The notes beneath the pieces were generated by a model, which did no database searches, was not told the DNA's origin, and worked only from the letters and a program-made list of their open reading frames with translations. A program made the translations under genes and the position numbers. From NCBI GenBank assembly GCA_002897695.1, contig BDTG01000047.1, forward strand, positions 1-32,586: 32,586 nucleotides of DNA. The letters run 5' to 3'. The stretch's first letter is position 1. Every line of letters starts with the position of its first letter. The DNA is from a bacterium BMS3Abin14. Lineage in GTDB: Bacteria > BMS3Abin14. This document shows, piece after piece, positions 1-23,206 of the stretch.

Positions 1-955
1 TGGTGGCGGATCTCCACGCACGAGCCTCAGATAATCCCCGTTTCATCAGGTTACGGGTGCGGGTGAAGGTACGTTTCCACTGTCTCCACAGGATGCACCG
101 GAGTTTGCGGCGTATCCAGCCGTCAAGTTCCTCGAACACACCTTTTACCTCTGCCAACCGGAAATAGTTCAGCCGGCCTCGAATCAACGGCATCAAGTCC
201 TCCTGAATGAACCGGCCAAGGTTGCAGCCTCGACCCTGACGGAATAGTATCCTGAGCTTGGCTTTGAATCGCGCCACACTCTTAGGCGCGACTTTGAGCC
301 GGGGTTGCTTATGATATGTCATGCTGTAACCCAGGAAACTCCTCTTCCAGGAACGGTCCACCGCGCTCTTGTTCCGGTTCACATTGAGCTTGAGACCTCT
401 CTCCAAAAACCGACTGACCGAGGCCAGTACACGCTCGCCGGCACGCTGGGACCGTACATAAATATTACAGTCATCCGCGTATCGACAGAACGCGTGGCCC
501 CGCCTTTCCAGTTCCTTGTCCAGATCATCCAACAGGATGTTGGACAAGAGCGGCGAGAGCGGACCGCCTTGCGGCGTACCTTCAGCGCTCCGGGTAACCA
601 GACCACCATCCATAACTCCCGCCTGAAGGTACCTGCGGACAAGTCCGAGGACCCTCCTGTCTTTGACCCGCCGAGCCACCCGGAACATCAAAATGTCATG
701 GTTCACCCGATCAAAGAACTTCTCCAGATCCATATCAACCACCCAACTACGACCGGAAGCAACATACTCACGGGCATTACGCACCGCATGATGAGCGCTT
801 CGGCCCGGGCGGAATCCATAGCTCGAATCCGAAAAGTATGGATCAAAGACTGGCTGCAAAACCTGATGCAAAGCCTGTTGAATGAGACGATCCAACAGCT
901 CGCCTTTGATGCGCGGCCAGTGCTCGCCTGTGGCTTCCTTCAGATCCCACCTCAC
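1..955 (-). pseudogene. ltrA: Group II intron reverse transcriptase/maturase, N-terminally and internally deleted, partial
   Basis: The frame is open from about 955 (possible GTG) to the window edge. It reads through RT blocks including [50 protein letters not shown] and the catalytic FCRYADD box, then a GIIM maturase region (MPLIRGRLNYFRL, WIRRKLRCILWRQWKR). The N-terminus is abnormal: intron RNA sequence (RWDLKEATG) is fused directly to [10 protein letters not shown], which is fused to DRLIQQAL at about 897-903. The usual block between these, about 28 residues containing the RVEIPKP...LGIPTV strand, is absent. No stop or frameshift is seen in the remainder, so the deletions may be recent. 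With RT-0/RT-1 missing the protein is unlikely to be active. The HNH/C-terminal status is unknown because the gene leaves the window. Confidence 0.8.
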
Positions 956-1046
956 GGTGGGCACCCTTGCCGTCCGGCTAGCAGTTCCCCCTGTCGGGAC
1001 TGCAAAGGACTTACACCTCCAAGTGGGTGCGCCCTGCCGGGCGCAC
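1..1046 (-). mobile_element. Group II intron (probable class C), 5' part, internally deleted, runs off left edge
   Basis: On the minus strand the canonical intron 5' end GTGCGCCCGGCA begins at 1046. It is followed by domain-I-like RNA sequence, including the GGTGGGATCTGAAGGAAGCC stretch (about 933-952) typical of bacterial group II introns. Only about 120 nt separate the 5' end from reverse-transcriptase coding sequence. Intact introns have several hundred nt of domains I-IV there, so a large piece is missing. The 5' junction lies immediately after the T-run of the fdh operon terminator (1048-1077) and in the same orientation, which is the target preference known for class C introns. The 3' end (domains V and VI) is outside the window. 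The class assignment is inferred from the insertion site. Confidence 0.8.
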
Positions 1047-2504: not shown

Positions 2505-5500
2505 CTATGCCTTCTTGACGTTGACCATAAAGGCCTTCGTCTCAGGAATCATTGTGTTGGCATCCCCAACGGATGGCGTCAACAGGTTTGAAGAATCGCC
2601 GAAGGTGTGGTTGCTGTACTCTTTGCCATTGGCCATGACGTCGTTTTCCTTTGTGGTGGCCCATCCGAAGCACCAGGGCAGGCCCACCTGGTGAACGGTA
2701 GTACCCGCCACCTTGAACGGCTGGAAGCGCTTCGTCACAATGGCAACCGCGTCCACGCTTGAACGGACGGAGGAGACAACGACCTTGTCCCCGTTTCCGA
2801 TACCCTTTTCCCTGGCGAGTTCCACGCTTATCTCCAGGAAGTTGGCAGGCTGCATCTCGACCTGCCATGGCAGCCAGCGGGAAAGCACACCCGTCTGCCA
2901 GTGTTCCGTTACCCGGTAGGTTGTGGCGACGATGGGATAGCGATCGTCGCTGTTAGCGAACTGATCAAGTTTCCCCGAGAAAATCTTGATCACCGGGTTG
3001 ATCCTCTGGGGGCTCATGAGGTTTTTCTCAAGGGGGGATTCCAGAGGCTCGTAGTGCTCAGGGAACGGTCCCTCCGCACGGCCCGGGCCAAAGAGCCTTC
3101 CAACGCCTGCGGGTTTCATGATGTAGGCCAGTTTGGTCTTCTCGTTCCACGTTCCATCCGGCTTCCGCAGGGGCGGCCAACCGCCGTCTGGAACGTCGCC
3201 GATCCATTTCGCGCCGTTCCAGTAGATGACCGGCTTTTGGGGGGCCCAGGGCTTGCCGTACTCGTCGACACTGGCGCGGTTATAGATGATCCGCCGGTTG
3301 ACGGGCCAGCACCAGGACCAGCCATTATAAAGGCCGATGCCCGTGGGATCGGACTTGCCCCGGCGGGCCATGTTATTCCCGCCGGCGTTGTAGGACTGGC
3401 TGTAAAGCCAGTTTCCTGATGAAGTGGACCCGTCGGCCTGCAGGAAAGCGAAGGACGGCACGAGGTCGCCGGGTTTATAGGTCTTGCCCTTGATGGTCCT
3501 CTCCTCGAGGAAATACCCGTTGATCTCCTTTGCGATGAGGTGGGTATTCATGCGGCGCACCTTGCCGTCCGGTCCCTTGGGGCCGTAGTCCCAGGTCATA
3601 TTCAGGATGGGGTCGGGGTAGACGCCGCCCTGTTCCTGGTACAGTTTTTTGACCCTGAACTGAAGCTCGTTGAGAATCTCCGAATCGGGGGGAGCAGGAG
3701 GCGCCACCGCGGCGTATCGCCACTGGCCCCAGCGACCGCTGTTGGTGATGCTGCCCTCCTTCTCGAAGGACATTGCGCAGGGCAGGAGGAAGACCTCCGT
3801 CTTTATCTGGGATGGGTCCATGCCGGGGGCCCGCCAGAAGGAGCCGGTCTCGTTGTCGAACAGGTTTACGTTGACCATCCAGTCCAGCTTTGTCAGTGCC
3901 TGGCGGGTCTTGGCGGAGTTGGCGCCGGAGCATGCAGGGTTCTGTCCCCACGCGAAGAACCCGGTGAATTTGCCCTTGTACATCTCATCGAAGAGCATCA
4001 GCCAGGAGGCGTTCTGTCCATCGTCAAGCTTCGGCAGCCACTGGTACTGGGTCTCCAGTGAGGCGCTCTTCCCGAAATGAGCACGGAGAAGGCTTGCACT
4101 GTATTTCGGGTAATTGGCCCACCAGTTGGCCGAATAGGGCTCACTGGTCTTCGGGGTATAGGCGCTGTTGTACCTGGCGAAAGAGGAGTCCTTGGCCCTC
4201 GGGGTTTTCAGATAGCCGGGGAGGATGTGAAACAACAGGCAGTGGTCCGTGGAACCCTGAACGTTGGACTCACCCCTCAGTGCATTAACACCTCCGCCCG
4301 ACATCCCTATGTTGCCCAGCAGGAGCTGGATTATGGCCATGGTCCGAATGTTCTGGGTGCCCACCGTATGCTGGGTCCATCCCATGGCGTACATGATGGT
4401 GCCCGTCCGGGCGGGTGTTCCCGTGGAGGTGTAGGTCTTGTAGACCTCCAACAGATCCCTCTTGGGCGTCCCGCAGATCGCCGACACCTTATCCAGGGTA
4501 TAGCGTGAGAATTGTTTTTTAAGAAGCTGGAGAACGCACATTGGATCCTTCATGCCGGGATCCTTCTTGATTACGCCCTTCCCGTCTTTCACGAATGCCC
4601 ACGACTTCTTGTCGTACTTTCTCTTTTTGGGATCGTAGCCGGAGAATACACCGTCCAGATCGCCCGGCATTTTGAAGCCTGTGTTAACGATGAACGGCCC
4701 GTTGGTGTACATCCGGACGTAGTCCCTGTGAAAAAGCTCGTTGTCCATGATATACTTGATCATCCCGCCAAGGAAGGCAATGTCCGTTCCCGACCTCATG
4801 GGAGCGTAGATATCAGCCTTCGAAGAGGTCCGGGTAAACCTCGGGTCAACACTGATCAGCTTTGCACCGTTCTCCCGTGCCTTGTCGACCCACTTGAACG
4901 ATATTGGATGGTTCTCAGCAGCATTGGAACCATCTATCAGGATAACATCCGAATTGCGGATGTCGATCCAGTGGTTTGTCATTGCACCGCGCCCAAACGA
5001 CTCTGCCAGAGCCGCTACAGTGGCGCTGTGTCATATCCTTGCCTGGTGTTCGATATACACCAGGCCCAGAGCGCGAAGCCATTTCTGGAGGATGTAGCAC
5101 TCCTCGTTATCCAGGGCCGCGGAACCCACCGAAGCAACCCCATCATTTCGATTCACTACCTGTCCGCCGGCATTGACCTTTGTAAAACCTGCGTCGCGGC
5201 TCTTCTTTACCCTGCGGGCAATCTGGCTGTAGGCCCAGTCCCAGCTGACCTCTTTCCATTCCCCGCTCTTCGGGGCCCGGTACAGAGGCTTGGTGATACG
5301 CCACGGGTTTTCGGAAACCTGACGCAAAGCCTGAGCCTTGGAGCAAAGGGTCCCCTCGTTGATCGGATGGTCAGGATCGCCGTCCATGTAAACGACCTTG
5401 CCGTCATGGGCCTGGACAATAAGGCCGCATCCGACTGCACAGTACGGGCAGATGGAGATCGACTCCCTGGAATACTTGATGGCCGTATTGCCGCCTCTGG

Positions 5501-5600
5501 CGCCGGCCATTGATATACCGCGAAGGCCGAGCCCTCCCAACGCCGCACCGGACACGCCGGCGCCGGAGATCTTTAAAAAATCTCTTCTCGTAACATTCAT
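2505..5600 (-). CDS. fdhA: Formate dehydrogenase alpha subunit, selenocysteine-containing, Tat-exported
   Basis: Catalytic molybdopterin (bis-MGD) subunit oxidising formate to CO2 in the periplasm. Start ATG 5600 gives the Tat signal TRRDFLKISGAG; ATG 5609 is an alternative but lies only 2 nt from GGAAGG. The N-terminal 4Fe-4S motif is C51, C54, C58 and C86. At 5031-5033 an in-frame TGA sits in the context HQARI-U-HSATVAALAESFGRG, the FdnG-type active site (Sec190 followed by the catalytic His). It must be read as selenocysteine; conventional ORF calling splits the gene into 5702-5031 and 4982-2505. The C-terminal MGD-binding domain includes VTEHWQTGVLSRW and HQVGLPWCFGW. The full product is 1031 residues, close to FdnG (1015). 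It has its own promoter and long leader. Confidence 0.96.
4997..5033 (-). promoter_or_regulatory. SECIS element for UGA recoding in fdhA
   Basis: After the TGA (5033-5031) there are 15 nt, then GCGGCTCT, loop GGC, AGAGTCGT: an 8-bp stem with two G-U pairs and a loop starting with G, 24 nt after the UGA. This geometry fits bacterial SECIS hairpins bound by SelB (apical loop with an early G, about 16-37 nt downstream). Pairing was read by eye, not folded. Confidence 0.75.
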
Positions 5601-5740
5601 CCTTGCCATCACCTTCCTTTCTCTTACGGTTAAAGATTCGGGAATAAGCTTTTTTCGGAACCAAACTAACTCTTTAACACCTGCCTTGCCTTCGGAACTC
5701 ACCCCCCTCCCCCTGTTTTTTTGTCCCGAAAAAGTCCCTC

Positions 5741-5781
5741 AAAAAACAAAAGGAAACCATGAGTTTATCACGGCTTCCTTT
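5741..5781 (-). terminator. Leader terminator / attenuator upstream of fdhA
   Basis: On the minus strand AAAGGAAGCCGTGA, loop TAAAC, TCATGGTTTCCTTT forms a 14-bp stem with two G-U pairs and no mismatch, followed by TTTTGTTTTTT. It lies between the fdhA promoter (5909-5937) and the fdhA start (5600), about 120 nt after the predicted transcription start, so it would stop fdhA transcription unless overridden. The other strand has no T-run after the hairpin, so it works only in the fdhA direction. Confidence 0.8.
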
Positions 5782-5902
5782 GCAAAATAGGCAGGCACGG
5801 CGATTACTCCCCGCACCCTATCGTCCTGCCCATCCCGGTGGGACGCAACAGGATCGGAAGTCTTTGTCCGGTATTTTACCCGGCACCCAGCGATTTTATA
5901 TA
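5782..5902 (-). ncRNA. Structured 5' leader of fdhA, possible cis-regulatory RNA
   Basis: About 120 nt of leader precede the attenuator. It contains at least one clear hairpin (CCGGGTA-AAA-TACCGG near the 5' end) and complementary GC-rich tracts such as GGGCAGG and CCTGCC. Position before a strong terminator is typical of riboswitches or protein-controlled attenuators. I could not match it to the molybdenum-cofactor, cyclic-di-GMP or cobalamin aptamers from memory, so no class is assigned. Confidence 0.4.
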
Positions 5903-5908
5903 GCAGGA

Positions 5909-5937
5909 ATTTTACCCCATCGAACCGTCAATTTCAA
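5909..5937 (-). promoter_or_regulatory. Sigma-70-type promoter of fdhA-fdhB-fdhI
   Basis: On the minus strand TTGAAA (5937-5932), a 17-nt spacer and TAAAAT (5914-5909) give a good sigma-70 match. Transcription would start near 5902, leaving a leader of about 300 nt before fdhA. Confidence 0.65.
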
Positions 5938-6036: not shown

Positions 6037-6960
6037 TCAGGCGGGGGCATCCTCGGGCCCGTCCCCGTCATCCACATCAAAGCCGACCCAGACACCGAAA
6101 ATATTGGGGGCGCTCCTCCGGTACCCTTCCCCTTCCGCGGCCAGATCGTAGCCGGGGGTCTTGAGATCCTCCACCTCCGGATTGGGATTATCATCCCCCC
6201 CGGAATCCCACGTTTTTATGTATCCCTTGCAGCTGTTGCAAAAATCCACCCTCAGATTGCTGTCCCCGCCTTCCAGGGTGAAGAACCCCAATTTTTCGTA
6301 GTCGCTGTTCCCGCAGAAGGGGCACATGATCCTTCGAAAGCGCCATGTGGTCTCACACCTGTGGCAGATCAGGTATCGTTTCCCACCCTCACCCTTCAGT
6401 ACTGCAACGGCGGGGCCGCCCCCGCAGACAGGACAGAATCCATGCTCCCAACCCGAGGTGTCAATTTTTCCGAGGGCATGGGATATATCCCTGAATGTTC
6501 CCTTAAGGACGTTGAAGACGGTGAAGAGGGCGATCTCCGGATTGAGAGGTGGGGGGATCACCCCGGCATCCCTGAATCTCTCCTCGCCGTCAACAAGGTA
6601 ATTTTCCACCATTTTTCGAAACAGCCCTTTTTCATCCAGAAGGCCTGATGCCCTGCTGTTTCCATCCGCATGGTCAGAATGGACCCTCAACACATCCAGT
6701 ATCTCTGCGGCCCTGTTAACCATGGCCCGCTCCGATGGCATGATCTCGATGGGTTGAAGGAGTGTAAACCCTTCCTTGAGCCTCATCTCGGCCTCGTCCC
6801 CGCCTGGTGCATGAAACCTTTTACCGGGTTTCAGCGCCTTCGCATTGAGGGCGGAAAGGGTCCTGTAGAGTTTAAGAACCTCCTCCATCTCCTCCATGTC
6901 CATTTTTCCCTTAAAGAGGGCCTGGATAGCATTTGAACCGGTTTTGTCCGAGCTTGCCAT
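6037..6960 (-). CDS. fdhE: Formate dehydrogenase accessory protein FdhE
   Basis: FdhE is a cytoplasmic rubredoxin-like protein needed for active respiratory formate dehydrogenases; it binds the catalytic subunit before Tat export. The 307-residue product carries the four CxxC pairs of the family in the C-terminal half: CPVCGGGP, CHRCETTW, CPFCGN and CNSCKGY. The N-terminal half is helical and divergent, as usual. Start at ATG 6960 is supported by AGGAGG at 5-nt spacing. It lies 61 nt after the serine-type FdhA paralogue and 436 nt before fdhA, same strand. The acidic tail DVDDGDGPEDAPA is a local feature. Whether it serves the Sec enzyme, the paralogue, or both cannot be read from sequence. 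Confidence 0.92.
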   Translation of the reverse strand: MASSDKTGSNAIQALFKGKMDMEEMEEVLKLYRTLSALNAKALKPGKRFHAPGGDEAEMRLKEGFTLLQPIEIMPSERAMVNRAAEILDVLRVHSDHADGNSRASGLLDEKGLFRKMVENYLVDGEERFRDAGVIPPPLNPEIALFTVFNVLKGTFRDISHALGKIDTSGWEHGFCPVCGGGPAVAVLKGEGGKRYLICHRCETTWRFRRIMCPFCGNSDYEKLGFFTLEGGDSNLRVDFCNSCKGYIKTWDSGGDDNPNPEVEDLKTPGYDLAAEGEGYRRSAPNIFGVWVGFDVDDGDGPEDAPA

Positions 6961-7021: not shown

Positions 7022-9817
7022 CTATCCTTTCTCAACTTTCACCATGAATGCTTTCAACTGCATGCCTCCATCCTTACCGTTGAAGACGGGGGAAAAGAGT
7101 TCGTTGGTCCCAGGTCGTTCAGGCCTGTAACCGGTAACGGAAGTGACATGGTAATGTTTTCCATTATACTCGAAATCCCCCAAACGGAAAGTGACAAGCG
7201 CCAGCGCACGGACAGGTTCTTTTACAAACGGTGTTTTGATATTGACCCTGTCACCACTGACCACATCCAGTTCGGCCGCCAGGGCTGGCCCCATCTCCAA
7301 CATCCGGCCGGTTCCCAACTCCGTAAGCCACCCCACCCGTCCCAGGATACCTCCGCTTCCCATTGTATTGCCTGTCCGGTGGGCCGTCATGATCACCGGG
7401 AATTTAGCCAGCACGTCCTCCGGCCTTCTGGAGAGGTAGTCCCATGGGCCGGAGCTTTCGTCCATTTTCTCGATGGACGGGTCGGACCTTCCTCCTGTCA
7501 GGTAATCGGGGAGAGGGCTGTGGAACGGTTCGTAGTGCTCCGGGAAGGGTGTCCCCGTGGCGGTTGTTCGCCAGAACCGCACTGATAGACCAGGCGCAAC
7601 CGGCGGAGAGCCTGACCAGCGAAGCAGTATGGACCTGTCCTTTTCATGACCAAAAACCCAGGAAAACGGATCGGGCATTCCCCATGGCCAGAACCAGCCC
7701 CATCGTTCAAATAGCCCGCGGCCATAGGGGTCCGATGAGTCCCTTCTCCCGGCCAGCCACGTCTCACCGGCCATCTGGCCACGGTAGAAACGGTTACCGC
7801 AGGAGGCCCCACGGGGCCAGTCCCGCCCGGGTGTGAGGGGTACCGTTTTCTCGGCATCATCGTTCACCACCCCGTTAATCTCCCTGGCGACGGCCTCCGT
7901 ATCTGCCCAAATAGGCCATCTCAGGGATTTCACCGGTGAAAGGCCCGGTCCCCCTTCGCTGTGGGCCATTTTTTTCACAATAACACCGAGCCTGGTTATG
8001 GTGTGGAGGAGAGGATGGGCCGTTTCCGGAAGAGCATGGGCTGGGCAAAGGCGGCGAACCCTTCTTCCGGCATCCGTCATGCTCCCGGAACGAAGGGCCG
8101 GGGGCTCTATGGGGATAAAGATAACCTCCGTCTTCAGGGCAAAGGCCCCGCCGGCGGCTTCCTTCCAGAAACGGCTTGTCTCGTTGGGCACGGTATCGAT
8201 AACTACCAGGAGGTCAAGTTTCTCCAGCGTTTCACGGACTGTTTTTCCACCTGGAAAACTGTTGACCAGGTCCGAACCGACAACTATCAACACCTTTATT
8301 TTTTCACTGGCCACGTCACGGAGGATGGTGCTGATTGAAATCCCCTCGTCCTTTTTCACGACAGGTAGAAAACCGACGGCCTCGGAAGGTTTTTTTGTGT
8401 CAAACCAGGCCCTGGCCAGTGCCTCAAGGGCGCCTGGGTCCTCCCTCTCAAATTCGGTATTTCCGGATTTGGCTCCCTCCAACGGCAGCGGAAGGTAGCC
8501 GGGAAGATATGGCGCCAGCAGGCCCATGTCGCAGACACCCTGAGCGTTTCCCGACCCGGATGGGACGATAATCCCGCCGCCCCGCTTTTTCAGGTTTCCC
8601 AGCAGGGTCTGGATTATCGCGGCCATCCGGACGGTATCTGATCCCGATGGACGGCACAAAACGCCTGCCCCAAGGACAAAGGAGGCGGAAAACTCCTGGC
8701 GCCCCGTTCTTGCCAGTTCTTTGCAGACCCGTCGAAAAAGGTCCAGGTCCACCCCTGAGATCCCGGCGATTTTTCGCAGATCGTATCGGCTGTAGTGTTT
8801 TATTAATCGCTGATAGATGGTGTAGGGTTCGGAAAGCCCCGGATCCATCTTTAGCTTGCCCCTGGACTTCCCGCGTGTATACCGCTGGTACTGTCCCATG
8901 ATTTCAGTCAGGGTCGAGAAGGAGGCATCCGTATGCTTGAGCAGTTCTTCGGTCCTGCGTTCTCCATGTTCGAGTATCCAGGAGATGAATCCGCCGAAGA
9001 CGGCAGCATCGCATCCAGGTCGGGTCTGGAGCCAGATATCTCCGGGTTTGATGGATTCCGTCCATCTGGGGTCAATAAACACCACCGTTCCGCTCCTCCG
9101 CCTTACCTCGTCTAAAAATCGGGAGAGTACAGGAGCAGTCTGTCCGGGGTTGCACCCGGCAACTATGACCAGGTCGCTCTCGGCCACCTGTGTCGGTGGG
9201 TGGGTCGGAGCAGGGAGTCCAAGGACACCGGACAGGCCCTGAACGGCCATCCCGTAACTGACCCGGACAGTGGTGTCCATTTTGACCATTCCCATGGATC
9301 GGAAGAGTTTGGAGAGAAGATATGCCTCCTCGTTAGTCAGGCTCCCTCCGCATATCATCCCCATGTTATCCAGGCGGTTTGAGGACATCCCTGCAGTGGT
9401 GCGTCCGCTCATTTCGTGGTCCCGGGCATCCTTGATCCGCCGCCCGACCGCATAGACGGCATCCTCCCAGGAGACTTCCCGCCAACTGGATTCGCCTGGA
9501 TATCGGTGCAATGAGCCAACCGATTTCACGGAATCGGTGACGGCGGTCAGGGATATCCCACGGGCGCACAGGGATCCCATGGCCACCGGACAGTCGGGGT
9601 CTCCTTCCACTTTCCATCGCCCATCGCTGTCCCTGAAATAAATAACACCGCAGCCCATGGAACAGAGGGGGCACCGGCTGGGCGTTTCGCCGCCATAGAT
9701 CACGGACCGATTTTTTGCCCCCCGGAAGGCCCCTGCCTCGCCGGAAGACAGGGTGGTCAGAAGGAGGCCTCCCCCGATTTTCAGGAAGCTTCTCCTGCTT
9801 ATGCCCTTATTTTTCAA
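7022..9817 (-). CDS. FdhA-like molybdopterin oxidoreductase with Ser at the Sec/Cys position, Tat-exported
   Basis: Paralogue of the Sec FdhA over its full length (931 residues). A Tat signal (ISRRSFLKIGGG) and the N-terminal 4Fe-4S motif (C49, C52, C56, C84) are intact, and a C-terminal MGD-binding domain is recognisable (TAHRTGNTMGSGG). At the active site HQARI-U-HSATV of FdhA reads TTVRV-S-YGMAV: the metal ligand is Ser187 (AGT, 9257-9259) and the catalytic His is Tyr. GWTQHTVG is GVLCRPSG here. Formate chemistry by the known mechanism is therefore unlikely. Serine ligands occur in DMSO/TMAO reductases, but the framework is FDH-like. Start: TTG 9817 has AGGAG at 6-nt spacing; the ATG at 9823 touches that site with no spacing. 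It could be an enzyme with another substrate, or a non-catalytic partner for Mo-cofactor loading or assembly. Confidence 0.85.
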   Translation of the reverse strand: MKNKGISRRSFLKIGGGLLLTTLSSGEAGAFRGAKNRSVIYGGETPSRCPLCSMGCGVIYFRDSDGRWKVEGDPDCPVAMGSLCARGISLTAVTDSVKSVGSLHRYPGESSWREVSWEDAVYAVGRRIKDARDHEMSGRTTAGMSSNRLDNMGMICGGSLTNEEAYLLSKLFRSMGMVKMDTTVRVSYGMAVQGLSGVLGLPAPTHPPTQVAESDLVIVAGCNPGQTAPVLSRFLDEVRRRSGTVVFIDPRWTESIKPGDIWLQTRPGCDAAVFGGFISWILEHGERRTEELLKHTDASFSTLTEIMGQYQRYTRGKSRGKLKMDPGLSEPYTIYQRLIKHYSRYDLRKIAGISGVDLDLFRRVCKELARTGRQEFSASFVLGAGVLCRPSGSDTVRMAAIIQTLLGNLKKRGGGIIVPSGSGNAQGVCDMGLLAPYLPGYLPLPLEGAKSGNTEFEREDPGALEALARAWFDTKKPSEAVGFLPVVKKDEGISISTILRDVASEKIKVLIVVGSDLVNSFPGGKTVRETLEKLDLLVVIDTVPNETSRFWKEAAGGAFALKTEVIFIPIEPPALRSGSMTDAGRRVRRLCPAHALPETAHPLLHTITRLGVIVKKMAHSEGGPGLSPVKSLRWPIWADTEAVAREINGVVNDDAEKTVPLTPGRDWPRGASCGNRFYRGQMAGETWLAGRRDSSDPYGRGLFERWGWFWPWGMPDPFSWVFGHEKDRSILLRWSGSPPVAPGLSVRFWRTTATGTPFPEHYEPFHSPLPDYLTGGRSDPSIEKMDESSGPWDYLSRRPEDVLAKFPVIMTAHRTGNTMGSGGILGRVGWLTELGTGRMLEMGPALAAELDVVSGDRVNIKTPFVKEPVRALALVTFRLGDFEYNGKHYHVTSVTGYRPERPGTNELFSPVFNGKDGGMQLKAFMVKVEKG

Positions 9818-9898
9818 ACACATCTCCTGTCGATTTTTACCGCGAGGCCGTGGCCGGCGCCGGAAAAAATACCGGATGCTGAAATCCGCTAATGTCGG

Positions 9899-10585
9899 TC
9901 ATTCTGGATCAACGGGCTCTTTTCCGGAGAGATGTCTAACGAGAACAACGCCGCCGGTGATAACGTTTTCCCTCACCTTGGCCTCAATGCTTTTTTCATC
10001 ACGGTTGCGGAAGGCCTCAATAATCTCCCTGTGCTGTCTGGCCACTTCAGCAAATTGTCCGGGAAAAGTCAGAGAGACGGCGCCAAAACGTTTAAAATGG
10101 TCGTTCAGGTTGGAGATCATCTGGATGAGGCGGCTGTTCCCGCTGAGTTTCACGAAGACCTCATGAAACCTGCAGTGTGTCCTGTAATATCCATCAATGT
10201 CATCCTCCGCCTGAAAATTTTCAAGCTCGACGCTGATCTTCTCCAGCTTTTCGATGTCCTTCCCTGCCATATGGGGAGTTGCCAGACGTGCGGCAAGACC
10301 TTCGAGAGTGCTTTTTATCTCGTAAAGCTGGAAGGCTTCATCGGAGTTGATCCCGGTAACAACGGCCCCTTTCCGTGGGATTATCTCTATGAATCCCTCA
10401 TTTTCCAGCTTTCGGAACGCTTCCCGAAGGGGGGTTCGGCTGATTCCCATGGAATCGGCCAGCTCACCCTCGGAGATCTTCTCACCAGGCCGGAACTTTC
10501 CCTTGATAATGGCTGTCCTTATAGAATCGGCGATGTCCTCCGACAGAAGCTTTGGTTCCTGGATCCTGATCTTGAAGTCTTTCAA
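9899..10585 (-). CDS. GntR family transcriptional regulator, FadR/FCD subfamily (second of tandem pair)
   Basis: DNA-binding regulator of 228 residues. The N-terminal winged helix (about residues 12-75) contains the GntR signature ELADSMGISRTPLREAFRKLENEG; the C-terminal all-helical FCD ligand domain spans about 80-215. FCD domains often use an Asp and three His to hold a metal; here FHEVF and RQHREII are present but the expected last His is Asn (VRENV), so metal binding may be altered. The start is TTG 10585, overlapping the stop of the upstream regulator (TTGA), so the two are translationally coupled. It ends 81 nt before the Ser-type FdhA paralogue, same strand, so a role in controlling the formate dehydrogenase genes is a reasonable inference. 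Confidence 0.88.
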   Translation of the reverse strand: MKDFKIRIQEPKLLSEDIADSIRTAIIKGKFRPGEKISEGELADSMGISRTPLREAFRKLENEGFIEIIPRKGAVVTGINSDEAFQLYEIKSTLEGLAARLATPHMAGKDIEKLEKISVELENFQAEDDIDGYYRTHCRFHEVFVKLSGNSRLIQMISNLNDHFKRFGAVSLTFPGQFAEVARQHREIIEAFRNRDEKSIEAKVRENVITGGVVLVRHLSGKEPVDPE

Positions 10586-11253
10586 TGGATTCCGGATTCC
10601 TCCATCCTTTTGATCATCTGGACCAACTCCTCGCCGGCGAGGAGAACATGTTCAACCACGACTGCTTCGGCCAGGCGACCGTCCTTTTTTTCAAATGCCT
10701 TGATGATAGACTTGTGCTGGTTTACAGACTCCATAAGCCGACCAGGCAAGGACAGCGTGGCCATGCGAAAGCCCTTGAATCTTTGGACCATGCTGTCCCG
10801 AATTTCGAGAAGTTTTTCATTTTCGCAAAGTTTGATAAAACAGTTATGAAAGTCGTTATTCCTGGCGAAAAATGCCTCGAGCTGACTCTTTTCCGCCAGT
10901 TCGGCCAGTTGTCCGTTTATTTTTTTAAGCTTTTCGATATCGCCGTTAGATATTTTCTCGGCGGCAACCCGGGCAGCGTATCCCTCGAGAAGACTCTTGA
11001 TCTCATAAAAATCCTCCACCTGCTTCGCGGTGATAGTGGATACTACCGCCCCCCTGCGTGGGATAACCGCCAGGAATCCCTCACTCTCAAGCTGACGGAA
11101 TGCCTCCCTTATGGGCGTACGGCTGATCCCCAACTTGGCTGCAAGTTCCGGCTCAGTAAGTTTCTGCCCGGGAGCAAGTTCCCTTCGAATAATGGACTCC
11201 CGAAGTGAAGTGGCAATCTGCTCCCTCAATGTTTTGTGCTTTTTAAGTTTCAT
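10582..11253 (-). CDS. GntR family transcriptional regulator, FadR/FCD subfamily (first of tandem pair)
   Basis: Regulator of about 223 residues, paralogous to the next gene. Winged helix with ELAAKLGISRTPIREAFRQLESEG (about residues 35-60), followed by an FCD domain with NDFHNCF, NQHKSII and VEHVLL, so the three FCD histidines are present. The start was set at MKLKKHKTLREQ (ATG 11253, AGGA just upstream); the frame continues to 11331 but without ribosome-site support. The stop overlaps the TTG start of the second regulator. A pair of TTGTATACAA-like boxes 120-140 nt upstream is a candidate autoregulatory site. The FCD effector is probably an organic acid, but the ligand cannot be read from sequence. 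Confidence 0.88.
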   Translation of the reverse strand: MKLKKHKTLREQIATSLRESIIRRELAPGQKLTEPELAAKLGISRTPIREAFRQLESEGFLAVIPRRGAVVSTITAKQVEDFYEIKSLLEGYAARVAAEKISNGDIEKLKKINGQLAELAEKSQLEAFFARNNDFHNCFIKLCENEKLLEIRDSMVQRFKGFRMATLSLPGRLMESVNQHKSIIKAFEKKDGRLAEAVVVEHVLLAGEELVQMIKRMEESGIH

Positions 11254-11371
11254 TTTCCTGATATAATCCAAGTCAATAGGAAGCAATCCAGCCGGACGAC
11301 CCAACAACCGATTACTCCACAAATACTCCACAAAAAATCATCGGTGGTTTTTACTGGGATCCTGTCAATAA

Positions 11372-20996: not shown

Positions 20997-21149
20997 AAGT
21001 GATGGCCTTGCAAAAAGCCGTCACCGCGCCCATAGAGTGGCGCTCAAATCGAAAATTTGTGAGGAAAGTGAAAATAACATTTTCGCTTTCCGTGGAGTAA
21101 AAAGCCATGAAGGGACTTTTTACGACCCTATCAAAAGTGACCTTGCAAA
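20997..21149. repeat. Compound palindromic repeat element (four hairpins)
   Basis: Successive inverted repeats read by eye: GTGATGGC/GCCGTCAC (20999-21024), GCGCC/GGCGC (21026-21043), GGAAAGTGAAAAT/ATTTTCGCTTTCC with a 3-nt loop (21063-21091, 13 bp with one G-U) and GTAAAAAG/CTTTTTAC (21097-21123). AAAGTGA(TGG)CCTTGCAAA recurs at both ends (20997-21013 and 21134-21149), like a terminal direct repeat. The fourth hairpin and right end extend into the next gene. No transposase is encoded. Confidence 0.7.
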
Positions 21150-23206
21150 TAAAGTTCAAACCTTCTGGGCGTTTATACCCCACTATAGCCCTGCTGGCAA
21201 TACTGGCCCCCTTGGGCCTCGGCTGTATTTCCCCTGCCGCGATCCAGCGGGAAGAAGCTCCGCGGAAGATTGTTTTGCAGAAACCTGCCCGAGCCGTGGC
21301 AAGCAAAGAGCTGGCGGTTTCACCGAAGCCCGCTCGCCGCAAGGAACGGATATCCGATCGTGAGGAGCTCATGGCCTATCAGGAGGCCGTCAGGATATTT
21401 CGTGAGGAGGGACGCGCCCAGACTGCCTATGACATGCTCGATGCCTTTCTCCATATGCACCCGGACAGCAGGTATGCTGACGACGCTCTTCTCGAACAGG
21501 TACGGATCATGGCTTCCCTCGATAAACCGCGGGAGGCCCTTCGCCTGGCAAGACGGCTGCTGCGGGACTACACCAACAGCCCATTGAGGAAAAAAACCTT
21601 CCTCCTTCAGGGAGACATTTCTCTCGGCATGGAAAAATGGAAGGACTGCGTCCGTTCCATGGACAACGCCCTTACCCTGGACCTTCTGCCCATGGAGCGT
21701 GCCGAGGCCCTCGACAAAAGAAGTGTGTGCCTTCTCAAGAGAAAGCGCTACCGCCAGGCGTTCATGGGAGCCCGGGATGCCCTCCTCTCCTCCTCAGCTG
21801 TGGGTGTATCCAAAGAGATCGGGAACGAAGCCCGGAAAACCCTGGCCCAGTCCGCAGCGGGTCTTGGAGACAAAGCCCTGGCAGATATACTCGCTGAATC
21901 GGACGGTACTGAGCCCTTCGTATACCTGGCCATGGAACAGCTTCGAAGGATGATTGAGAAGGGGCTCTACCGGGAGGGAATGAACGACCTGACGGACATC
22001 CTCACACATTATCCGGGGCTGGCTCCACAGGCCGGCATTGACGAAGCCTACGATATATTAAGCGGCCATCTGCTCGTTCAAGGCGACACCATCGGCGCTA
22101 TCCTCCCCCTTTCCGGACGCTATCAGATCTACGGTGAAAAGGCGCTTCAGGGGATTCAGTCCGCCCTCGGGCTCATGTCCCCGCTGCCTCCGGATGAGTC
22201 CTCCCCCCATTTCACCCTCGTGACTATCGATTCCGGGACAGATCCGCTGAAGGCTGCCCAGGCCGTTACTGACCTTGCCGGAAAGGACCACGTTCTGGCT
22301 ATCATCGGGCCGCTATTCTCAAGGACATCGAAGACCGCCGCACAGGCCGCGCAGAAATCGAACGTCCCCATTATTACCCTCTCCGCAGATCCATCCATCC
22401 CGAAAACAGGTGACAATGTTTTCCGCCGTGCCCTGTCCGATTCCCAGCAGATAAGCTCCCTGGTGGCCGCGGCCCATGACCGCTTCATGATGACCAGGTT
22501 CGCCCTCCTTTATCCGGACACGGCTTACGGGAGGGAGATGATGAACCGCTTCTGGGACGAACTGGACAAAGGGGGGGCTGAGGTGACAGCGGTTGAAAGT
22601 TTCCCCCCCGGCGTGACCGATTTCGGGCCGCAGATCCGCTCCCTGGTAGGCCTTGATCGCAAGCTGTCCCCGGAGGATAAGCTCCTCAAGGAAAACGGGG
22701 CGGACGTAAAGGTCAAACCCATCGTGGATTTCGACGCTATCTTTATCCCGGCCGGGTTCCAGACCGTAGGCCTCCTGGCCCCGCAGCTTGCCTTCTACGA
22801 CATAACCAATGCCCTCCTGCTCGGCACCGATGGGTGGAACAACCCGTGGGTAGTGGAACTCGGAGAACATTATGTGGAAGGCGCTATTTTCACGGGCGGG
22901 TATCTGGCCGACATGGCTAATCCCGTCAGCAGAAAATTTTCGGCAAGATACTGGCTCAGCTTCGGTGAGGACCCCCAACCCCTGGCAGCGCAGGCATTCG
23001 ACGCAGCCAGTCTGATCCGTTCGGGGTTGGAATCAGGGATGGTCAAAGATCGATCATCCCTCAGGAACTACCTCATGAATCTCACCGACGCCCCGTCTGC
23101 GGAAGGCCCCCTTACCACGGGGCCGGACGGAGACATCGCCCAGCGCCCCCATCTCCTGACCGTGGAGAGGGGGAAAATCAAGCCGTTCGTGCCGGAAATA
23201 GATTAG
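21107..23206 (+). CDS. Penicillin-binding protein activator-like lipoprotein (TPR plus periplasmic-binding-protein fold)
   Basis: A 699-residue envelope protein. After a hydrophobic segment ending LGLGC (Cys40, a plausible though imperfect lipobox) comes a helical repeat region (about residues 80-310, TPR-like: YQEAVRIFREEGRAQTAYDMLDAF). A type-I periplasmic-binding-protein domain follows (about 325-690) with GAILPLSGRYQIYGEKAL, LAIIGPLFSRTSKTAAQ and FALLYPDTAYGREM. This layout is that of LppC/LpoA-type activators of class A penicillin-binding proteins; a ligand-binding role is also possible. The ATG has GGAG 9 nt upstream, but start codon and first codons lie inside the compound repeat. GTG at codon 11 is an alternative. 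Divergent from rsmA. Confidence 0.8.
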   Translation: MKGLFTTLSKVTLQIKFKPSGRLYPTIALLAILAPLGLGCISPAAIQREEAPRKIVLQKPARAVASKELAVSPKPARRKERISDREELMAYQEAVRIFREEGRAQTAYDMLDAFLHMHPDSRYADDALLEQVRIMASLDKPREALRLARRLLRDYTNSPLRKKTFLLQGDISLGMEKWKDCVRSMDNALTLDLLPMERAEALDKRSVCLLKRKRYRQAFMGARDALLSSSAVGVSKEIGNEARKTLAQSAAGLGDKALADILAESDGTEPFVYLAMEQLRRMIEKGLYREGMNDLTDILTHYPGLAPQAGIDEAYDILSGHLLVQGDTIGAILPLSGRYQIYGEKALQGIQSALGLMSPLPPDESSPHFTLVTIDSGTDPLKAAQAVTDLAGKDHVLAIIGPLFSRTSKTAAQAAQKSNVPIITLSADPSIPKTGDNVFRRALSDSQQISSLVAAAHDRFMMTRFALLYPDTAYGREMMNRFWDELDKGGAEVTAVESFPPGVTDFGPQIRSLVGLDRKLSPEDKLLKENGADVKVKPIVDFDAIFIPAGFQTVGLLAPQLAFYDITNALLLGTDGWNNPWVVELGEHYVEGAIFTGGYLADMANPVSRKFSARYWLSFGEDPQPLAAQAFDAASLIRSGLESGMVKDRSSLRNYLMNLTDAPSAEGPLTTGPDGDIAQRPHLLTVERGKIKPFVPEID

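Follow-up and report, generated by a model that had tools for sequence, protein, structure and literature searches.

The window, the whole 32,586-nucleotide stretch of DNA analyzed here, encodes an FdhA-like paralog (SG-FdhA) beside a selenocysteine (Sec)-containing formate dehydrogenase (FDH). This paralog is best read as a maintained, formate-inactive, exported protein resembling an alpha subunit, and as a new, lineage-restricted case among the non-formate CISM/MopB paralogs. It has lost the catalytic residues of formate dehydrogenases and keeps the cluster and putative cofactor motifs; it is under purifying selection in a syntenic locus, and a separate riboswitch precedes the neighboring fdhABC genes.

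Organization of the locus

SG-FdhA is encoded on the reverse strand at positions 7022 to 9823, with an ATG start, 933 amino acids and no internal stops. The initial annotation was right that the gene is intact, but its end at 9817 and length of 931 codons are slightly short. Directly upstream lie two conserved GntR/FCD regulators in tandem (regulator 2 at 9899 to 10585 and regulator 1 at 10582 to 11331, both reverse strand), which share ∼40 to 46% identity with each other and precede the paralog in all relatives with enough contig. Downstream on the same strand is an fdhE-like gene (6037 to 6960; 307 amino acids, four CxxC motifs), whose product scores under the NCBIfam FdhE cut-off and passes those for the Pfam FdhE central and C-terminal domains. 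The catalytic fdhA follows (2505 to 5702, reverse strand), with an in-frame TGA (Sec) codon at 5031 to 5033; it starts at a GTG at 5702 or, more likely, at an internal ATG near 5600. Two further reverse-strand genes are predicted to encode an FdhB-like four-cluster electron-transfer subunit (1703 to 2488) and an FdhC/FdnI-like cytochrome b membrane subunit (1108 to 1806). A search of the window's genome for a second close FdhB found none encoded, and the genes for SelB and FdhD lie at other sites in it. Two other features of the window are a weak Rfam hit for group-II-D1D4-3 at 895 to 961 (reverse strand), immediately 3′ of the cytochrome b gene, and a 699-amino-acid open reading frame (ORF) at 21107 to 23206 (forward strand) with no NCBIfam match at an E value of 1e-20.

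The gene order GntR-GntR-paralog-fdhE-[Moco/Tuco riboswitch, terminator]-fdhA(Sec)-fdhB-fdhC is kept on all contigs that are long enough, so that the association with fdhE and a downstream Sec-FdhA first seen in the window extends to its relatives. One family genome, G007, carries the entire locus on a single contig (L078, G007:C93) without the paralog; its Sec motif is intact, ∼220 bases separate GntR regulator 2 from fdhE, and a search of this gap for remnants of the paralog returned chance-level matches only. This indicates that the Sec-FDH locus can persist without SG-FdhA; G007 has a completeness of only 80% and may carry a copy at another site. We also note that another genome (L083, G011:C423) encodes a second Sec-FdhA, 59% identical and with its own FdhB, on a 7.1-kb contig with no match to the paralog or to fdhE.

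A Moco/tungsten-cofactor riboswitch (RF01055) lies between fdhE and fdhA at positions 5759 to 5871 (reverse strand), and across the family this gap measures 436 to 638 bases; besides the window, 8 of the 9 relatives scanned have RF01055 there, G007 included. Overlapping its 3′ end is a terminator-like hairpin of 14 pairs with a U tract (5749 to 5781, reverse strand), around which 64 nucleotides give a fold z of −3.6, and this sharing of sequence between the aptamer and the terminator stem would be in keeping with an ON switch. A sigma-70-like promoter match (TTGAAA-17-TAAAAT, by consensus only) is found just before the riboswitch at 5909 to 5937 (reverse strand). We infer from this arrangement that fdhABC forms its own cofactor-gated unit and that the paralog and fdhE are probably transcribed separately.

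Loss of the formate dehydrogenase catalytic residues

FDH-type enzymes use Sec or Cys as the Mo/W ligand together with a His, and DMSO/TMAO reductases use a Ser ligand. At the Sec/His site SG-FdhA has Ser189 and Tyr190, encoded by AGT (9257 to 9259, reverse strand) and TAC, which align with the TGA codon and His of the neighboring fdhA and with U192/H193 of Desulfovibrio vulgaris FdhA. The GWTQHTVG of the Sec enzyme is replaced by GVLCRPSG, and the Tat motif SRRSFLK and the 4Fe-4S cysteines C51, C54, C58 and C86 are present along with putative MGD motifs. These features bear out the initial annotation, which missed one further loss, that of the catalytic Arg (R441 in D. vulgaris FdhA, Ser422 in the paralog).

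Our search for orthologs covered 386 genomes across the domain, with 12 genomes in the window's own family, and orthologue-level matches were confined to that family. The paralog was recovered in 11 of the 12 genomes, with 10 full-length copies and 1 (in G003) cut by an assembly gap of Ns and not by decay; the nine full-length orthologs other than the window's copy are 50 to 83% identical to it. When the genome collection was scanned with a sequence pattern, only this family and L044, an unrelated molybdopterin protein, matched, and a motif search that flagged G096 as a non-Sec/Cys FDH was ruled out by its site, which reads RLCHS. Because the sampled relatives pass from "same family" straight to "same domain," the window's family seems to be the sole sampled representative of a deep lineage.

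Among the ten full-length orthologs, the Sec position is Ser in six and Gly in four (AGY and GGN codons, respectively), with at least three changes on the tree by manual count. The catalytic-His position is Arg in five, His in four and Tyr in one, the catalytic-Arg position is Ala in five, Ser in four and Val in one, and the Thr-Gln-His (TQH) loop has become Leu-variable-Arg/Ser/Gly. Conservation of the Ser and Tyr, which the initial annotation had put forward for checking, is thus not observed, and the random residues that it named as grounds for refutation are nearly what we see at the Sec position, yet the variation there is confined to small residues. The same positions are conserved in 29 of 29 catalytic FdhAs, save for one Ser at the TQH His, and FDH-N catalytic subunits from the other sampled genomes have Sec or Cys wherever the site was read. 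Other positions of the paralog are uniform: all ten orthologs carry Arg in place of the Lys that lies between cluster and pterin, and the Tat RR.F and all four cluster cysteines are invariant.

Conservation, selection, and history

The three pocket loops, whose columns we picked from known FDH biochemistry, are invariant at 8 of 28 columns in the paralog, compared to 255 of 904 (28%) across the whole alignment and to 28 of 28 in the neighboring catalytic FdhAs. The putative MGD-motif columns, assigned in segments of our own choosing from sequence motifs and general family knowledge and not from coordinates, are invariant at 34 of 53 (p = 3e-8), and the cluster cysteines at 4 of 4. Within the paralog, conservation is highest in these putative bis-MGD motifs.

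Nei-Gojobori dN/dS values are 0.14 to 0.15 for the paralog (three closest pairs), 0.09 to 0.11 for FdhA (two of the three closest pairs) and 0.20 to 0.24 for FdhE (closest pairs). The value of ∼0.15 indicates a maintained gene, and the paralog is under purifying selection and is not decaying. Identity across genera is 55 to 63% for the paralog versus 83 to 88% for FdhA, a rate nearer to that of FdhE. The paralogs sit on a very long stem outside every sampled catalytic FDH-N, and the approximately unbiased (AU) test rejects a clade uniting them with the neighboring FdhAs (p = 9e-5); given the long branch, this result speaks against a recent tandem copy and gives no date for the split.

Relationship to characterized families

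SG-FdhA scores 393 bits against the FDH-N alpha model TIGR01553, whose cut-off is 814 and against which the neighboring Sec FdhA scores 1385, and it lacks the Sec/Cys-His pair and catalytic Arg expected of that family, while its Tat signal and four 4Fe-4S cysteines conform. FdnG/FdoG and D. vulgaris FdhA (TIGR01553) are still its best family match over most of its length, and it has in common with the FDH-N/FDH-O subunit the Tat motif, cluster cysteines, MGD-type motifs and a PFPEHYEP motif, but a C-terminal segment and an FDH-N segment of ∼45 residues are missing. Membership in the MopB/DMSO reductase superfamily is supported by PF00384 (E value of 1e-20) and PF04879 (E value of 4e-9), both above cut-off. 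The conserved Ser ligand of DMSO/TMAO reductases is contradicted by Gly in 4 of 10 orthologs, and matches to the models for those enzymes are weak. An AlphaFold2 model built from a 12-row alignment had a mean pLDDT of 41.6 and was unusable.

Several relatives of these enzymes do not carry out formate or standard chemistry. OmeA of Dehalococcoides (DET0187-type) resembles an FDH-N alpha subunit and has Ser where Sec/Cys would be expected; it reportedly has no formate dehydrogenase function and is part of an organohalide respiration complex that also includes OmeB, HupX and a reductive dehalogenase (PMC3160892, PMC5736913). A known family with Ser at this site was among the grounds for refutation that the initial annotation had named, and OmeA, an FDH-N-type protein that has been studied, provides one. 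By published description, and not by sequence, SG-FdhA is like OmeA in being FDH-N-like. At the Sec position the window's copy has Ser and 4 of the 10 orthologs have Gly. The operon of SG-FdhA consists of fdhE and fdhABC with a Sec-FDH next door. A search of the 12 family genomes for a reductive dehalogenase (PF13486) gave no match, and genomes outside the family yielded weak fragments only.

QrcB, of the Qrc menaquinone reductase, is a non-catalytic relative of Mo/W catalytic subunits without redox cofactors (PMC13059093); the paralog matches its profile at only 46 bits and, with cluster cysteines that are all invariant, would be expected to hold a cluster. In the arsenite oxidase AioA, also a MopB protein, no amino acid ligates the metal (PMC10100899), and the profile search reported no AioA match for the paralog. 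FhcB, an FwdB-type MopB protein without cofactor, has a scaffold role (PMC10100899) and differs from SG-FdhA in being cytoplasmic and in belonging to another branch of the superfamily.

Possible functions of SG-FdhA

As first choice, and with about even confidence, we hypothesize that SG-FdhA resembles an alpha subunit but is non-catalytic, and that it works as a redox or structural component in the periplasm beside the Sec-FDH. The protein would fold like an FDH-N alpha subunit and receive a [4Fe-4S] cluster, would probably still bind bis-MGD, and would very likely be exported by the Tat system in folded form, with FdhE probably escorting export as it does for FdnG/FdoG. The axial ligand, catalytic His, catalytic Arg and TQH loop are gone without a conserved new set in their place; formate oxidation would be absent and catalysis is probably lacking. 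SG-FdhA could then serve beside the Sec-FDH as QrcB and OmeA serve their own complexes, presumably in partnership with FdhE or FdhB. This reading would fit the lost and variable catalytic residues, the pocket loops at background conservation, the kept cluster cysteines and MGD motifs, the purifying selection and conserved gene order, and the single close FdhB in the genome, and it has precedents in QrcB, OmeA and FhcB. Against it, neither a beta nor a gamma partner specific to the paralog is encoded and the ∼45-residue FDH-N segment is missing; the position of the paralog and fdhE outside the riboswitch-gated fdhABC could point to maturation, and retention of the cluster and MGD motifs would equally be expected of a true enzyme with another substrate.

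The initial annotation had posed two alternatives, a formate-family enzyme with an oxygen ligand or a conserved non-catalytic partner for FdhE or cofactor loading. The former is very improbable: a conserved Ser ligand would agree with the six orthologs that have Ser, but Gly, which is incapable of ligation, occupies the position in the other four with at least three switches, the adjacent residue is variously Arg, His or Tyr, the His and Arg of the active site are also lost, and a Sec-to-Ser change in Escherichia coli FdhH abolished formate oxidation. Still less probable is a decaying pseudogene or recent tandem copy of fdhA. The dN/dS above that of FdhA and the missing copy in G007 would suit such an origin, but the dN/dS of ∼0.15, ten intact ORFs and invariant cysteines do not, and the AU result, with its long-branch caveat, also argues against it; decay, which the initial annotation had listed as a possible refutation of its own proposals, can be set aside on the same evidence.

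The non-catalytic half of the second alternative stands as far as formate chemistry goes, the FDH residues being lost, and SG-FdhA may take part in cofactor loading or act with FdhE. In its fullest form, SG-FdhA would mimic FdhA and serve in maturation or cofactor handling: with FdhE (and FdhD) it would hold, test or hand over bis-MGD, or it would occupy FdhE or the Tat machinery, to the benefit of the Sec enzyme. The constant pairing with fdhE, the riboswitch and terminator that part the paralog from fdhABC downstream, a rate of evolution faster than that of FdhA and nearer that of FdhE, and the known binding of FdhE to FdnG/FdoG are all consistent with this, but the paralog bears a Tat motif itself, while the maturation factors known for FDH are cytoplasmic, and G007 has intact Sec-fdhA, fdhB, fdhC and fdhE without it; we regard such a role as unlikely. 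We judge it quite unlikely, too, that SG-FdhA is a true Mo/W oxidoreductase for another substrate, whose metal either lacks a protein ligand, like that of AioA, or has one that is not conserved. Such an enzyme would account for the retained cluster cysteines and MGD motifs and for the uniform Arg in place of the cluster-pterin Lys, but the pocket loops are no better conserved than the protein as a whole, unlike an active site, and neither a beta subunit of its own nor obvious substrate genes nearby are encoded.

Rather unlikely, in our estimate, is the broader proposition that SG-FdhA is either an FdhA mimic that assembles or metallates a riboswitch-gated Sec-FDH with FdhE or a MopB enzyme whose metal lacks a protein ligand and whose substrate is another one; if true, it would define a new functional class found in this lineage only. 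Automatic annotation likely labels the paralog as formate dehydrogenase, which would lead metabolic reconstructions to include a second formate enzyme where very probably there is none. G007, with its Sec-FDH locus lacking the paralog, offers a natural control, and SG-FdhA is a well-delimited, conserved further case among the few MopB proteins, such as QrcB, OmeA and FhcB, that have lost formate or other standard chemistry.
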